Below, one piece after another: positions 94-23,935 of a stretch of 32,323 nucleotides of DNA. Source of the DNA: Deltaproteobacteria bacterium. GTDB taxonomy: Bacteria > Desulfobacterota > Binatia > UBA9968. The translations under genes were made by a program, and so were the position numbers. The notes beneath the pieces were generated by a model, which searched no databases, was not told the DNA's origin, and saw only the letters and a list, made by a program, of their open reading frames with translations. The first letter of the stretch is position 1; each line of letters begins with the position of its first letter. Where the stretch lies: the NCBI GenBank assembly GCA_016180805.1, contig JACPAM010000111.1, forward strand, positions 1-32,323. Reading direction: 5' to 3'.

Positions 94-398
94 ATCTTTA
101 GCCTCGGCCAAAAGGCCTGCCGTGCTTCCCTTTGAAGCCGGAGGGGGGGCGAGGAGAAAAGCCGCGGCGGCGCAGGGGGCTTCGGGACTCCCTTCGCTCC
201 ACGGGACTACGCCACGCGACCCACCGGGCCTGCGCTCGGACGAAGCTTCCGGAATTCCCTGCGAAGTAGCCCTGAAAGCTGTCAGTTCCGGCTTTCATCC
301 GGCGCAGTCCTCGGTCGGTACCCGCTGCTCCGTCCCACAGCCTGCTTGCAGGCGGTTAAGATGGTTTCGCTCGGGGAGCCCGCTCAGCCCACAGCGCC

Positions 399-501
399 CG
401 AGGGGAGCGCGAGCGAGGCTGCGGACGTCCGATTACAAGCGATTCGACTCACGCCACAAACCCATCGGCCGCAGCCGAAAGCACGCTCCCCGAGGGAGCT
501 T
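399..501. repeat. Dispersed palindromic element A, copy 1 (103 bp)
   Basis: cgaggggagcgcgagcgaggctgcggacgtccgattacaa...cccatcggccgcagccgaaagcacgctccccgagggagctt; same length and arrangement as 23578-23680. Confidence 0.85.
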
Positions 502-507
502 AGTGAC

Positions 508-4282: not shown

Positions 4283-5692
4283 TTACTCTTTTTCCGGGAT
4301 TCCCGGCTCGGTCATGCGCCATGGATCGAGAATTTTGTTTAGCCTGTCTTCCGGGAGAACCTTGTGCGCCAGCGAAACCTCCCGCACGGTCTTTCCGGTG
4401 GTAAAGGATTCTTTGGCGATCTTGGCGGCTGCGTCGTAGCCGATGACCGGCGCCAGAGCGGTCACCATCGCCAGGCTCTTTTCGATCATCTCTTCGCAGC
4501 GCTCCTGGTTAGCCTGGATTCCAACCACGCACCTCTCGGTAAAGGCGCGCACGGCGCTGGCGGTGAACGTGATCGCTTCCAGGAGCCTTAGCGCCATGAT
4601 CGGCATCATGACGTTGAGCTCGAAATTCCCCGCCTGACCACAGATCGTGATCGTGGCGTCGCAGCCGATAACATGGGCGGCGACCTGGAGGACCGACTCG
4701 CACATCACGGGGTTGACTTTTCCCGGCATGATCGAGGAGCCCGGCTGGGTATCCGGGAGCCCGATCTCCCCGATCCCGCATCTCGGCCCCGAGCTTAGCC
4801 AGCGCAGGTCGTTGGCGATCTTGGTCAGGCTTGCGGCCAGTGTTTTCAGGCTGCCGCTCAACTCCACGACCGCGTCCTTGGCGGCCTGAGCCTCAAAGTG
4901 ATTTTTCGCCTCACGAAAATTGACGCCGGTCATTTCGGAGATCTTTTTGATGGCTTTGGCGGGAAAGTCGGGGTGGGTGTTGATGCCCGTTCCGACCGCC
5001 GTGCCGCCGAGCGCGAGCTCTTCCAGGCCGGCCGAGGCGCGGCGGATTCGCTCTGCCCCGAGCTCGATCTGCCGCGCGTAGCCGCCAAACTCCTGGCCCA
5101 GGCGGATCGGCGTGGCGTCGGCCAGATGGGTGCGGCCGATTTTGACGATCCGGTCGAACTCCTGCGCCTTCTCTTTGAGGGCGAGATGGAGTTCGTCGAG
5201 GGCCGGCAAAAGCTCTCTTTGAATCGCCTCCAAGGCCGAAACATGAATGGCGGTGGGGATGACGTCATTGCTCGATTGGCTCATGTTTACATGGTCATTC
5301 GGGTGAACCTCCCTGCTCCCGCGCTGCTTGCCCAAAAGCTCGAGGGCGCGGTTGGCGATCACCTCGTTGGCGTTCATGTTCGTGGACGTTCCGGAACCCG
5401 TCTGAAAAATATCGACGACGAATTCTTTATCGAGTTTACCTTCTATGACCTCCGTTGCGGCCCGGCGGATGACGTCCGCAGTCTTGGGGTCGAGCAGCTT
5501 CAGCTCTTCGTTGGCGCTCGCGGCCGCGTGTTTGATGATGGCCAGGGCGCGGGTGAAACGGGGTGGAAAGCCGATACCGCTGATCGGGAAGTTGTCCACG
5601 GCGCGCTGGGTTTGGGCGCCGTAATAGGCGCTTTTCGGCACCTTGACTTCCCCCATGGAGTCCTTTTCGATCCGGTATTCCTGCACAGCCAT
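4283..5692 (-). CDS. fumC: Class II fumarate hydratase
   Basis: Full-length FumC with GSSIMPGKVNPV signature, TGSGTSTNMNANEVIANRA and SQSSNDVIPTA. Confidence 0.97.
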   Translation of the reverse strand: MAVQEYRIEKDSMGEVKVPKSAYYGAQTQRAVDNFPISGIGFPPRFTRALAIIKHAAASANEELKLLDPKTADVIRRAATEVIEGKLDKEFVVDIFQTGSGTSTNMNANEVIANRALELLGKQRGSREVHPNDHVNMSQSSNDVIPTAIHVSALEAIQRELLPALDELHLALKEKAQEFDRIVKIGRTHLADATPIRLGQEFGGYARQIELGAERIRRASAGLEELALGGTAVGTGINTHPDFPAKAIKKISEMTGVNFREAKNHFEAQAAKDAVVELSGSLKTLAASLTKIANDLRWLSSGPRCGIGEIGLPDTQPGSSIMPGKVNPVMCESVLQVAAHVIGCDATITICGQAGNFELNVMMPIMALRLLEAITFTASAVRAFTERCVVGIQANQERCEEMIEKSLAMVTALAPVIGYDAAAKIAKESFTTGKTVREVSLAHKVLPEDRLNKILDPWRMTEPGIPEKE

Positions 5693-5882
5693 GGTTGACT
5701 CTCCTTTATGAATTTCTTTTTAGCTTTTAGCGGTTTCTCGGTTCTAAGTCTAGCTCCGCCTCGACCCGCGCACGGGGGTAGTTCACCGGTCTCGGGGACA
5801 AGCCGCTCCGGTCGAGGGCAATAACAAAATAAAAATCGCGACTCGCCCCCTCGACCGGTTGTGCGACCGAGGGGAGCGCGAG

Positions 5883-5944
5883 CCCCGTTGAGTAACTGCA
5901 CGGTCGAGGAACCACCCCCGTGGTCAAGACCACACTCCACGGGG
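5883..5944. mobile_element. 62-bp insertion with terminal inverted repeats in element A copy 2
   Basis: CCCCGTTGAG...CTCCACGGGG termini (9/10 complementary), flanked by CGAG at 5879-5882 and 5945-5948; absent from copies 1 and 3. Confidence 0.65.
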
Positions 5945-6017
5945 CGAGCGAGGCTGCGGAGACGTCCGATTACAAACGGCACGACTCATGGCACGAACCC
6001 ATCGGCCGCAGAGTTAC

Positions 6018-6047
6018 GGGGACAGGCACGCAAGCGAGCCAGTCCCC
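6018..6047. repeat. REP-like hairpin B3, inserted in element A copy 2
   Basis: ggggacaggcacgcaagcgagccagtcccc, identical to B1/B2; insert 6012-6050 is flanked by (G)CCGCAG repeats at 6005-6011 and 6050-6056. Confidence 0.85.
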
Positions 6048-6105
6048 TCGCCGCAGCCGAGAGCGCGCTTCCCGAGGGAGCTTGGTCCATCGGCTGAATG
6101 CGAGC

Positions 6106-6138
6106 GGGGACAGGCACCGCTTCGCGGAGCCTGTCCCC
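6106..6138. repeat. REP-like hairpin B4
   Basis: GGGGACAGGC-A-CCGC-TTC-GCGG-A-GCCTGTCCCC; flanked by GAGC at 6102-6105 and 6140-6143. Confidence 0.85.
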
Positions 6139-6220: not shown

Positions 6221-7930
6221 CTAACTTCCGCAGGGGATCGTGACCGTGAAGGTGGAACCCTTGCCCGGCTCGCTCGTCACCGCGACGGTTCCGCCGAGCA
6301 TGTCGGTAAACTTCTTCACGATGTAGAGGCCGAGCCCGATGCCGCCGCGCGTTCGGCGGGCCGAGCTATCGCCCTGGTGAAAGATCCTGAAGATGGACGC
6401 CACGGACTCATGGCGGATGCCGATGCCAGTGTCCGTCACCTTGAACTCGACAGAGGCTTGAGGCGGGAGACGTGAGGCATCAGTTAAATCTTCTTCCGTT
6501 GACTGTTGCCCGTTGCCCGTTGCCTCATGCCTGGCGCCTTCTACCAGCCGGGCGGAAACCCGCACCTCTCCACGATCGGTGAATTTGATCGCATTGTTGA
6601 TGAGATTTTGCAGAATCTGCCTGAGCTTCACGCCATCGGTATGGATGGTTGGCAGGTCTGGAGGGTAATCCCACTTCAGCGCGAGGTCTTTGTCCGGAGG
6701 GTAGTCGTAGTCCGTTCGAAGCTCGTCTAAAAAATGGCTCAATCTCACCGGGCGCGAGTTGACCTTGATCGCGTGGGACTCGAGCCTGGTTGCATCGAGG
6801 ATGCTGCTGACCATACTCAGCAACTCATTGGAGCGACTGAGAATTTTGCCGATGACCTTTTCTTGCTCGGAGCTTGTTGCTCCCACCACTTTTTCCTGAA
6901 TCATCCGCGCGTAGCCGTTGATGACGGTGATCGGAGTCTTCAGCTCGTGTGACATAATACTCAGGAATTCGTCTTTCACCTTGTTCGCTCTCTCCAGGTC
7001 CGCTGCTTGTCTTTTCGTTTGTTCGAAGAGCCGGGAATTGTGGATCGCGATCGCCGCCTGTCCGGCAAGCGTCGAGAGAAATTCGATCTCGTCGTCGACG
7101 AAAAGGTGCTCCTCTTTCGTGTAGAAAGAGAGGACCCCCAAAGCCTCCCCTTTGGCGATCAACGGGACACCCAGAAAGGAGACCAGCCCCCGCTTGCGGA
7201 AGGACTCGGGCTCGCTGACCTGCGGGTCGGTATGCAGGTCAGACGACACCAGGGGGGTTTTCGTGTCGAACACGCGACGAGCCAGGTTGCCGCCAGAGTC
7301 CGAGAGCTCTGACTCCGTTTGGTCCTCATCGACATTCCGACTGACGATGGCCTCTAAGGCCTGGGTTTCTTTGTTGTATAACCGAACCGTTGTGGCGGAA
7401 TAGGGGAGAAGCTGATCGATTTTTGCCAGCAGCAACGTCAAGACTTTATGGAGCTCCAGGGTTGAGGTAATGGCCAGGTTGATATCATGCAGACCCGCCT
7501 GGCGCCGCCGATGGTGCTGAACCTGTTCTTCGGCCCGCCGCCGCTCCCGGCGCACTTTGGACTCCCCCAATTCCCGTTCGATGGCGGGAATGAGGCGGGC
7601 GAGGTTCCCCTTCATGATGTAGTCCTGGGCGCCCGCTTTCATCGCCGCCACGGCTGTGTCCTCGCCGATCGTTCCGGAGACGAAGATGAAGGGGATATCG
7701 AGCCCGCTCTTTTTGAGCAACGCCAACGCTCCGGTCCCGGTAAAGTTGGGCATGCTGTAGTCTGACACCACGATGTCCCAACTGTGTCGGGCAAGCGCCG
7801 CCATCATGTCCTCGGCGGTATCCACCCGTTCGTGGATGACATCGTAACCGGCGCGCTGCAGCGCCCGCACCAGAAGCAGCGCGTCGTCTTCCATGTCTTC
7901 GACGATGAGCACCCGCAGCGCTTGGCTCAT
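6221..7930 (-). CDS. Receiver-GAF-histidine kinase hybrid protein
   Basis: N-terminal receiver (IVEDMEDDALLL...VVSDYSMP...VSGT), GAF-like region, HisKA FLSIMSHELKTPITVI, HATPase N box and DTGIGI/GGIGLGLYIVKK. Confidence 0.93.
   Translation of the reverse strand: MSQALRVLIVEDMEDDALLLVRALQRAGYDVIHERVDTAEDMMAALARHSWDIVVSDYSMPNFTGTGALALLKKSGLDIPFIFVSGTIGEDTAVAAMKAGAQDYIMKGNLARLIPAIERELGESKVRRERRRAEEQVQHHRRRQAGLHDINLAITSTLELHKVLTLLLAKIDQLLPYSATTVRLYNKETQALEAIVSRNVDEDQTESELSDSGGNLARRVFDTKTPLVSSDLHTDPQVSEPESFRKRGLVSFLGVPLIAKGEALGVLSFYTKEEHLFVDDEIEFLSTLAGQAAIAIHNSRLFEQTKRQAADLERANKVKDEFLSIMSHELKTPITVINGYARMIQEKVVGATSSEQEKVIGKILSRSNELLSMVSSILDATRLESHAIKVNSRPVRLSHFLDELRTDYDYPPDKDLALKWDYPPDLPTIHTDGVKLRQILQNLINNAIKFTDRGEVRVSARLVEGARHEATGNGQQSTEEDLTDASRLPPQASVEFKVTDTGIGIRHESVASIFRIFHQGDSSARRTRGGIGLGLYIVKKFTDMLGGTVAVTSEPGKGSTFTVTIPCGS
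6453..6536. repeat. 7-nt-phased inverted repeat, locus 2, inside a CDS
   Basis: gaggctt gaggcgg gagacgt gaggcat cagttaa atcttct tccgttg actgttg cccgttg cccgttg cctcatg cctggcg: twelve in-phase heptamers; lies in frame in the kinase ATPase domain. Confidence 0.8.
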
Positions 7931-10294: not shown

Positions 10295-11753
10295 AGCTTG
10301 TGCCTTTGTTCGCAGAGTTGTTTGTTTGCGCGGTTTGCTCGCGGTTTAGCGGCAGCCGGACCGTGAAGGTCGTGCCCTTCCCCGGCTGGCTGCTTACATC
10401 CAGCGCCCCTTTGTGCCTCTCGACGATTTGTTTGACGATCGCCAAGCCCATCCCGATGCCTCTGGGCTTGGTCGTAAACAGGGGATCAAAGATCTTGGCC
10501 AGGTCCTGTTCGGAGATCCCGTGCCCTGAATCCCGAATTTTTACCTCGCCAAGGCCGTCGGCGGGCCTGGCCGAGATGGTGAGCGTGCCGCCTTCGGGCA
10601 TGGCCTCGTCGGCGTTCTTGATCAAGTTAGCAAAGGCGCGGCGCATTTGGTCGCTGTCGACCACGACCTCGGGCAAGGCGGGCGCAAAGTCCTTGATGAC
10701 TTTGACGTTCTTTTTGACTTCCAAGCGGGATAGAGCATTTTCCAGGACCGTATCCAGCTTGGTGGGGGAGACTTTGGGAGGGTTCACACGCGCGAAGTCC
10801 ATCAGGTCGGTGATGATCCGGTTGCACGCCTCCACCTCCTCGTCCATCAGACCAAGAAACTCCCGGACCCTTGGATTCTCTTTGACTACTTCGGAGCCGT
10901 CTACCTTGCCTTTGATGTAGTAGGTAGCGTTCTTGATGGCCCCCAGGGGATTTCTAAGCTCATGGGCAACGCCCGCCGAGAGCTCCCCGATGGCTGCCAG
11001 TCTCTCCGTTCGGATCAATTTTTCCTGAGCCTCGCGGAGTTCTGCCGTCCTTTCCTCGACTTGCTTCTCCAGTCGCACGTTGAAGGACTCGAGCTGATCT
11101 TGCTGCCTGACGATTGTCCTCCAGCCGCGCCATACAATGGAGACCAAGCACCCATACAACACCGCAAATCCCACAGCTATCCAGCCAAAGAGCCAGCGAC
11201 GCAACTCATTGATCCGTTGTGCCGTCGGCAGGTAATACTGGTAGATCTCGAGGACTCCTTGCGGCTCAGTAGTGCCTGGAAAGATGATAGGGGTGTAGAC
11301 CTCTATCAGGGTGCCGAGATGTCTTTCGTGGACACTTTCCACGTCTTTGGACAGCTTGATCTCGATCGCTTTCTCCCCTCGCAGTCCCTTTAGGAAACTC
11401 GCGTTGTTCGGGAATTTTTCCCCGACGCCGGCGGGGTTGTTGGAGTAAGTTACCGTGCCATCCTTTGCCCACAGCTTTACCCGCGCAGTTCGGTCCGAAA
11501 CAATATATTGCTGCACGAACTCATGGAACTCTTTGTACCTCTCTCCGGTCATCGGGGTTTCTAGATCCGCTGGGGTGATTGCACGCAGAAGGCGGCCTGA
11601 AGAGGCGCCCTTAGCTTCTTCAGCCAGCGCATCAATCGCATCCGATTGAATTTTGTTTGATAGGAATACGGCCAGGACCACCGCCAGGGCTGCCATGACG
11701 ATGAAGCCGGCGAGGGAAAACTGGAGCAATAGATTGTCTTTCAGTTTTCTCAT
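10284..11753 (-). CDS. Membrane sensor histidine kinase (NtrB-like transmitter)
   Basis: N-terminal TM segment, extracytoplasmic sensor, second TM, coiled coil, AAIGELSAGVAHELRNPLGAIKNA H box, DSGHGISEQDL, GIGMGLAIVKQI. Confidence 0.93.
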   Translation of the reverse strand: MRKLKDNLLLQFSLAGFIVMAALAVVLAVFLSNKIQSDAIDALAEEAKGASSGRLLRAITPADLETPMTGERYKEFHEFVQQYIVSDRTARVKLWAKDGTVTYSNNPAGVGEKFPNNASFLKGLRGEKAIEIKLSKDVESVHERHLGTLIEVYTPIIFPGTTEPQGVLEIYQYYLPTAQRINELRRWLFGWIAVGFAVLYGCLVSIVWRGWRTIVRQQDQLESFNVRLEKQVEERTAELREAQEKLIRTERLAAIGELSAGVAHELRNPLGAIKNATYYIKGKVDGSEVVKENPRVREFLGLMDEEVEACNRIITDLMDFARVNPPKVSPTKLDTVLENALSRLEVKKNVKVIKDFAPALPEVVVDSDQMRRAFANLIKNADEAMPEGGTLTISARPADGLGEVKIRDSGHGISEQDLAKIFDPLFTTKPRGIGMGLAIVKQIVERHKGALDVSSQPGKGTTFTVRLPLNREQTAQTNNSANKGTSYDR

Positions 11754-12033: not shown

Positions 12034-12741
12034 ATGGGGCGTGTGCGTAGCCTCGGGGAACTAAACAAGGCTATCGTTGGGTGCGCAAGATGCCCGCGCT
12101 TGGTCAGGTGGCGAGGGGCGGTGGCTAGAAAACCGCCGCGACGATACCAGGGGGAGACTTACTGGTCCAAACCCCTTCCGGGATTCGGGGATCCGGACGC
12201 GCGTCTGCTCATCGTGGGGCTGGCGCCGGCGGCGCATGGTGGGAACCGGACTGGACGGATCTTTACCGGGGATCGAAGCGGTGATTGGCTTTACGGGACT
12301 CTCCACGCCTTCGGTTTTTCCAATCACGCTACATCAGTTCGCCGCGACGATGGTCTAAGGCTCCGTAGCTGCTACGTGACTGCTGCCGTGCGCTGCGCGC
12401 CCCCGGCGAACAAACCCGCCAAAAGAGAGTTTGACAATTGCCGGCCTTATCTCGTGCGCGAGCTGGGGCTTCTGGGGAATCTCCGTGTGGTCGTCGCGCT
12501 GGGTAAAATCGCTTTTGATTCGTTTCTGAAAGCGTATGAGGAAAGCGGAGGTGTCGTTCCGAAGCCCCGGCCTAAGTTTCGGCATGGTGCTCTATATCGG
12601 CTTTCGGACGCTTTGAGCCTTTTGGCATCTTATCATCCCAGCCAGCAGAACACGTTCACCGGCAAGCTCACTCGCCCGATGTTTCAGGCTGTCTTTGAGA
12701 AGGCGAGGGCGATTCTGGAAGGAGGCGCTAGTCAGTTTTAA
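12034..12741 (+). CDS. Family 5-type uracil-DNA glycosylase (UdgB-like)
   Basis: CARCPRLV, GFGDPDARLLIVGLAPAAHGGNRTGRIFTGDRSG, CYVTAAVRCAPP, ASYHPSQQNTFTGKL. Confidence 0.92.
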   Translation: MGRVRSLGELNKAIVGCARCPRLVRWRGAVARKPPRRYQGETYWSKPLPGFGDPDARLLIVGLAPAAHGGNRTGRIFTGDRSGDWLYGTLHAFGFSNHATSVRRDDGLRLRSCYVTAAVRCAPPANKPAKREFDNCRPYLVRELGLLGNLRVVVALGKIAFDSFLKAYEESGGVVPKPRPKFRHGALYRLSDALSLLASYHPSQQNTFTGKLTRPMFQAVFEKARAILEGGASQF

Positions 12742-12817
12742 GTTTTTAGTTCTTAGTTTTGAGTTGAAGGAGTTTTCTGATTAACTAAAAACCCAAAATT
12801 CAAAACTAAAAACTGAC
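12731..12817. repeat. 7-nt-phased inverted repeat, locus 3
   Basis: gtcagtt ttaagtt tttagtt cttagtt ttgagtt gaaggag ttttctg attaact aaaaacc caaaatt caaaact aaaaact gac; outer arms GTCAGTTTT/AAAACTGAC (the 3' arm reads aaaaactgac). Confidence 0.88.
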
Positions 12818-23358: not shown

Positions 23359-23577
23359 GATCGACCTCCTGGATAAAATGGCTGGCCCGGAACCCTTTTT
23401 ATGTTTAGTTGGGTGCAGTTGTCAAACAGGCTGGCGAAGGAAGCGGGAGCTCCGTTCGGGGACCCGCCTCTCGCACCGAAGGCGATGGGCCTGCGCTTTT
23501 GCCGAACCGTTCAGTCTCGGCGCCTTCGGCTTGCTCGGCAGGCCCCCTCACTCTGAGACGGAGTAGCCGGAAGCGAC

Positions 23578-23680
23578 CGAGGGAAGCGCGAGCGAAGCTG
23601 CGGACGTCCGATTACAAACGCTATGACTCATGGCACAGGCCCATCGGCCGCAGCCGAGAGCGCGCTTCCCGAGGGAGCTT
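23578..23680. repeat. Dispersed palindromic element A, copy 3 (103 bp)
   Basis: GGGAAGCGCGagcgaagCTGCGG...CCGCAGccgagagCGCGCTTCCC arms around acgtccgattacaaacgctatgactcatggcacaggcccatcgg. Confidence 0.87.
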
Positions 23681-23935
23681 ATTCCACCGACCGCGGCCCG
23701 ACGGCTCGGTCGCTTCCAGGCAGCACGATGGCTCACCGGTCTCGGCGGCAAGCCTCTCTGTCCGAGGGCAATGCGCCTCTACCTTGAGGAGGCCTTCAAA
23801 CGAAACAATCGGTGTGAGCACCGATGAAGAAACGCGCTACGATCTGCCAAGCACCACAGACGTCATTGGAGCTTCACGTCCGGTGCCCTCGTCCGTCGCG
23901 GCTCGCCCCCTCGACCGCGACTTTTTCCTTCGAAG

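Follow-up and report, generated by a model that had tools for sequence, protein, structure and literature searches.

An optional 62-bp hairpin module at one fixed site of a dispersed palindromic intergenic repeat

BOX elements of Streptococcus pneumoniae have the structure boxA-[boxB]n-boxC and occur in more than 100 copies, and repeat families nest within one another (PMC3049150). In yeast mitochondria, the GC clusters (GC42 and relatives) are short GC-rich palindromes with putative short target duplications; their stems are conserved, their loops are variable, and the units merge and shuffle (PMC4478555). Palindromic REP sequences are the targets of several insertion sequences, among them IS1397, IS621 and ISPsy8 (PMC1525189). 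Prokaryotic MITEs, such as Correia and RUP, are short multicopy elements with inverted-repeat ends and a direct duplication (PMC10969869). How composite repeats that lack an enzyme acquire and share their modules is poorly understood.

Here we describe a 62-bp insert in a palindromic intergenic repeat, element A. Judged by analogy, the nearest known kinds appear to be BOX-type composite small repeats and, by behaviour, the yeast mitochondrial GC clusters. As in BOX, a composite small intergenic repeat carries an internal module at a set place, possibly in varying number; this is an analogy, and sequence homology would not be expected. Unlike in BOX, a short direct repeat lies on either side of the module, which is mostly present in zero or one copy and forms a hairpin of its own with inverted-repeat ends. 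The short GC-rich palindrome, the putative short target duplication, the conserved stem with a variable loop and the shuffling of units are shared with the GC clusters, whereas GC42 is organellar and occupies many independent positions and the 62-bp module a single target. Element A resembles the targets of IS1397, IS621 and ISPsy8 in that it is a palindromic repeat between genes and offers insertions a dispersed landing site, but those elements encode a transposase and no coding parent with the ends of the insert was found here. With MITEs such as Correia and RUP the insert shares its short, non-coding, multicopy nature, its terminal inverted repeats and a direct duplication. Duplications at independent targets, insertion in either orientation and an autonomous parent with the same ends, which are three defining features of MITEs, were looked for and not found, and we therefore class the unit with the composite small repeats. 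Our best explanation, held with moderate confidence, is that the 62 bp are an optional hairpin module of composite repeat A, passed on chiefly when short tracts were copied non-reciprocally from one A copy to another, and to a lesser extent by co-amplification.

The window, i.e. the whole stretch of 32,323 nucleotides that was analysed, contains the insert in copy 2 of element A (Table 1). The locus is intergenic: on one side lies a gene (4283-5692, minus strand) for a lyase of the fumarase/aspartase family, on the other a gene (6221-7930, minus strand) for a histidine kinase. A sequence-only reading had proposed a 62-bp insertion here, with inverted-repeat ends, an internal palindrome and a 4-bp target duplication, and too small for a transposase. 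The insertion and its flanking CGAG repeats were confirmed, and the 62 bp encode nothing. The ends, CCCCGTTGAG and CTCCACGGGG, have the inverted match of 9/10 that was noted earlier, and can alternatively be read as CCCCGTNGAGT across 11 positions. The palindrome GTGGTCaaGACCAC is indeed present at 5920-5933, but it is kept in some subtypes of the insert only; given this partial conservation it was dropped as a candidate functional core. In the uninterrupted copies of the window the site reads gcgcgagcgaggctg (407-421, copy 1) and gcgcgagcgaagctg (23586-23600, copy 3). The empty site in other A copies is GCGCGAGCGAGG, in which two tandem CGAGs are already present, and the insert sits between them. 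The duplication stands as CGAG on both sides, but its exact length is ambiguous, at 4-6 bp (GCGAGC in the 6-bp reading), because the insert starts with C and finishes with G.

Table 1. Features of element A and its modules in the window
Feature	Position	Strand	Sequence or remark
Element A copy 1, without 62-bp module	395..502	+	z -3.7
Left stem, element A copy 2	5865..5882	+	GACCGAGGGGAGCGCGAG
Flanking direct repeat, left CGAG	5879..5882	+	
62-bp hairpin module, subtype a	5883..5944	+	ends CCCCGTTGAGT / ACTCCACGGGG
Flanking direct repeat, right CGAG	5945..5948	+	
Inner stem and loop, element A copy 2	5949..6011	+	CGAGGCTGCGG...GGCCGCAG
Nested hairpin module B1 (second)	6018..6047	+	GGGGACAGGCACGCAAGCGAGCCAGTCCCC; between GCCGCAG repeats 6005-6011 / 6050-6056
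Right stem, element A copy 2	6057..6083	+	CCGAGAGCGCGCTTCCCGAGGGAGCTT
Nested hairpin module B2 (third)	6106..6138	+	GGGGACAGGCACCGCTTCGCGGAGCCTGTCCCC
Element A copy 3, without 62-bp module	23574..23689	+	z -5.4, a stronger hairpin than in copy 1

Element A is predicted to fold into a long hairpin (z values in Table 1), in which the insertion point corresponds to the internal loop that joins the outer and inner stem segments. In the predicted fold of one insert-bearing copy (L015) the A stem is kept and the insert becomes an extra side arm; other insert-bearing copies fold variously. The window had no match to Rfam models at gathering thresholds. Ten Y1_Tnp matches were found in the genome, and element A, the B modules and the insert were absent within ~1.5 kb of all of them. 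The idea that A is a REP element mobilised by an adjacent RAYT transposase was rejected, because no RAYT gene adjoins A.

We searched the genome (4.46 Mb; a fragmented assembly of 339 contigs, 91% complete) for further units. The head of the insert had 33 exact matches, and a search for both ends in register gave 18 matches versus none for the reversed control. Hence, the insert is not unique and is not a chance sequence. After merging of overlaps, the matches comprised 31 complete inserts, one extra unit in tandem and one insert ended by a contig edge. Partial inserts were represented by a right part only (L227) and by a unit that stops at a contig end (L228). Inverted-repeat units with CCCCGTNGAGT at both ends were short and non-coding, with lengths of 55-62 bp. 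One near-complete tandem duplication of the module was found (L022), as well as two partial ones (L005, L011). A pattern scan of the genome_contigs set gave two matches that were both discarded as chance similarity to the insert head in unrelated sequence. Uninterrupted A cores numbered 243 (at most 3 mismatches), which may include a few matches spanning the right junction of an insert. With ~31 insert-bearing versus more than 240 uninterrupted copies, the insert is an optional internal module at a fixed place in a dispersed repeat. All complete inserts retain the flanking duplication, with CGGG on the right side in L020. About 8 of the 33 insert heads lie at most 150 bp from a contig end, as is expected when repeats interrupt assembly. 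Some contigs may therefore join a left arm to the wrong right arm, which does not affect arm diversity per side.

The insert pattern matched only one of 57 related genomes (G003, at L137), with a single mismatch, and blastn of that genome with the whole insert gave nothing above chance. The same search of seven relatives gave only chance matches of 14-20 bp. No match was found in viral contigs searched with the insert pattern, in plasmids searched with window positions 5850-6000 (A plus insert), or in phages searched with uninterrupted A. Of the genomes searched, only this one has the insert. Uninterrupted A, by contrast, is also found in relatives: the sister genome G001 has 99 cores, and further copies occur in G002, G007, G009, G014, G019 and G022, which belong to the family and include other genera. 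Because these relatives carry uninterrupted A alone, uninterrupted A is the ancestral form and the 62 bp are a derived state, a true insertion. A hairpin flanked by direct repeats favours precise slippage deletion, and the long form might accordingly be thought ancestral, with uninterrupted copies arising by deletion between the CGAG repeats. The sister genomes and the other genera of the family refute this as a general explanation, and we consider it very improbable, while single reversions may have occurred. The abundance of A is patchy, with one core (at most 2 mismatches) in G002 versus 99 in G001; the G002 assembly is small and 71% complete. As an empty-site check we also examined L020, but the orthologous place in G001 is without any A and is therefore uninformative on the gain of the insert alone.

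All 31 complete inserts share an identical insertion point, at the internal loop of A and always at the same nucleotide, and an identical orientation relative to A. They are flanked by GCGCGAG (at minimum CGAG) on the left and by CGAGCGAGGCTGCG on the right, the latter being only partly visible in three copies at contig ends. No insert was found in the genome outside A-derived sequence. Since all copies share one target, their common CGAG duplication is not repeated evidence of transposition; where only one target is shared, terminal inverted repeats together with a short duplication are not in themselves evidence for transposition. Of the transposition-type event proposed in the sequence-only reading, we retain a true, non-coding, multiplied insertion with inverted-repeat ends and a short duplication, but not independent transposition.

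The main rival of copying is nevertheless transposition in trans with strict specificity for site and orientation. The 62 bp would then be a tiny non-autonomous transposon (MITE), moved by a transposase with the A hairpin as its target. This would agree with the conserved inverted-repeat ends and the direct duplication of 4-6 bp that every complete copy has, with the presence of inserts in A copies that have diverse or truncated arms, and with the targeting of REP sequences by IS elements of several families (PMC1525189). A single orientation would, however, be unusual for near-symmetric ends, and the many other CGAG sites are all without an insert. Excision footprints were absent from 89 uninterrupted copies in this genome and from 60 in G001. 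Moreover, a transposase with matching ends, as the sequence-only reading envisaged, was not found: the assembly, fragmented and 91% complete, holds no coding element bounded by CCCCGTNGAGT, nor any longer element with this sequence at both ends on one contig. Lone CCCCGTNGAGT ends were dismissed as chance matches in unrelated sequence or as the truncated inserts L227 and L228. We regard transposition in trans as possible but rather unlikely.

The inserts fall into five subtypes with nearly invariant members. Pairwise differences among subtypes a-d amount to 4-12 positions; inserts of subtype e are shorter by one base. Such near-identical members with conserved ends resemble the successive bursts that transposition in trans could produce. 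Conservation is higher in the outer 12 bp of either end, which contain 2 of the 13 variable sites, than in between (p 0.048), a pattern that would also fit transposase-binding ends. The A arms flanking the inserts, in contrast, vary as much as between any two A copies. Among copies whose arms are intact, within-subtype variation affected 47 of 344 arm sites versus 2 of 248 insert sites, a difference found for subtypes b, c and d each (p<0.003). Right arms of insert-bearing copies were no closer within subtypes than between them (permutation p 0.78), and the nearest arms were mostly those of empty A copies. The arms around the inserts are drawn from the entire A population. Private changes were also ~sixfold commoner per base in arms (8/1290) than in inserts (2/1856; p 0.02). 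As the inserts are near-identical and the arms diverse, the module probably entered many existing A copies separately, and pure co-amplification is inadequate unless the arms were scrambled later.

Such scrambling is part of another explanation, in which a single insertion occurred, the insert-bearing A multiplied as a unit, and conversion with the ~eightfold commoner empty copies later scrambled the arms. The shared site and orientation agree with it, as do two pairs that look jointly amplified: L014/L017, in which 1 of 86 arm sites differs, and L025/L026, which share a rare left-arm base. The A SNPs also agree, being close to linkage equilibrium. In the right arm of 84 empty copies, all four gametes were present in 123 of 171 common-SNP pairs, and r2 was 0.075 at distances below 5 bp and ~0.016, near baseline, past 15 bp. 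This fits short-tract exchange between dispersed copies, and could alternatively reflect recurrent transitions at unconstrained or saturated loop sites. Against this explanation, the excess of private mutations in the arms cannot be supplied by conversion, and residual clustering of arms by subtype is absent. We judge it unlikely.

For the preferred reading, copying between A copies, we infer the following mechanism. In this lineage, one or a few founding insertions would have brought the hairpin into an A copy, between its two tandem CGAGs. Replication or repair may then stall at the hairpin base, GCGCGAG|CCCC, and a template switch to an insert-bearing A copy and back would add the module; short-tract ectopic conversion would be equivalent. 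Further copies may arise by ordinary multiplication of insert-bearing A units. Copying of this kind would not require a dedicated transposase for the 62 bp. It is supported by the common base and orientation inside A-derived sequence, the absence of the insert from relatives with uninterrupted A, the contrast between inserts and arms, the apparent signal of exchange, clustered breakpoints, the A stem kept in the L015 fold, and the presence of two further modules at recurrent A sites. Against it, four left-truncated copies (L014, L017, L019, L021) retain too short a remnant of A left of the insert for ordinary homologous conversion, unless truncation came later: CGAG alone in L014 and L017, and AGCGCGAG alone in L019 and L021. 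No clear co-conversion tract was seen, with left-arm diversity continuing to position -9. A literature search on conversion and template switching among short bacterial palindromic repeats found nothing. A stronger version, which is tentative and probably not correct, is that an enzyme-less 62-bp hairpin homes into one internal-loop site of another dispersed hairpin repeat by DNA-structure-driven template switching, always in a single orientation and accompanied by a duplication of 4-6 bp, and would thus be a secondary parasite of a primary repeat family. Because the polarity is known from relatives, and five near-invariant subtypes reside in an A population with variable arms, modules that were transposed, co-amplified or copied can be separated with strain-level data.

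Breakpoints concentrate 0-9 nt left of the insert, where the tandem duplications in L005, L011 and L022 also lie and where the four left-truncated copies break off. One such case is L017 (also L276; contig C234 of this genome, G000, ~10773-10882), where an insert-bearing, left-truncated A lies in a gene for a transporter substrate-binding protein. Its orthologs in G001 and G002 continue as CAAGATCAGGCGG, versus CAAGATC|GAG-insert-A here, so that this copy starts at the boundary of the left repeat and the insert. This start point fits a switch or break at the base of the predicted hairpin. The last ~twenty codons are replaced and the reading frame is extended by A and insert, while G001 and G002 retain the normal C-terminus and have no A at this locus. 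The right half of A plus the insert at a place that is empty in both relatives implies that insert-bearing A units do reach new sites, which also agrees with co-amplification. Ortholog identity of this gene to G000 is 92% in G002 and 85% in G001. For comparison, the Rickettsia palindromic element inserts in frame within genes. Here the window copy proved intergenic, and two copies, L014 and L017, continue the frame of an ORF upstream of them. As 65 bp are added by subtype e, the reading frame is not conserved among copies. Elsewhere in the window, a gene for a substrate-binding protein like that at L017 (30415-31257) seems broken, with a two-piece match and an internal TGA in the first piece. 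An AT-rich inverted repeat with 35-bp arms, 80% complementary and 17 bp apart, lies at 12731-12817, close to where the ORF at 12034-12741 ends.

Element A carries other modules besides the 62-bp unit. Two GGGGACAGGC hairpins, B1 and B2, recur at fixed positions of A copies, namely in the window (6005-6056 and 6106-6138) and in L020, L021, L023, L054, L121, L123, L128, L131, L132 and L241. GCCGCAG repeats flank one GGGGACAGGC module in the window copy and in L021. Because B1 and B2 likewise recur at set positions, A can be regarded as a modular platform. In copy 1 of the window, a perfect 50-bp tandem duplication containing the GGGGACAGGC hairpin was observed at 489-588. In L129 (contig C43 of G000, ~18019), the loop of A is swapped for another hairpin, GGGGGTCGGGAGTC...GACTCCCGACCCC.
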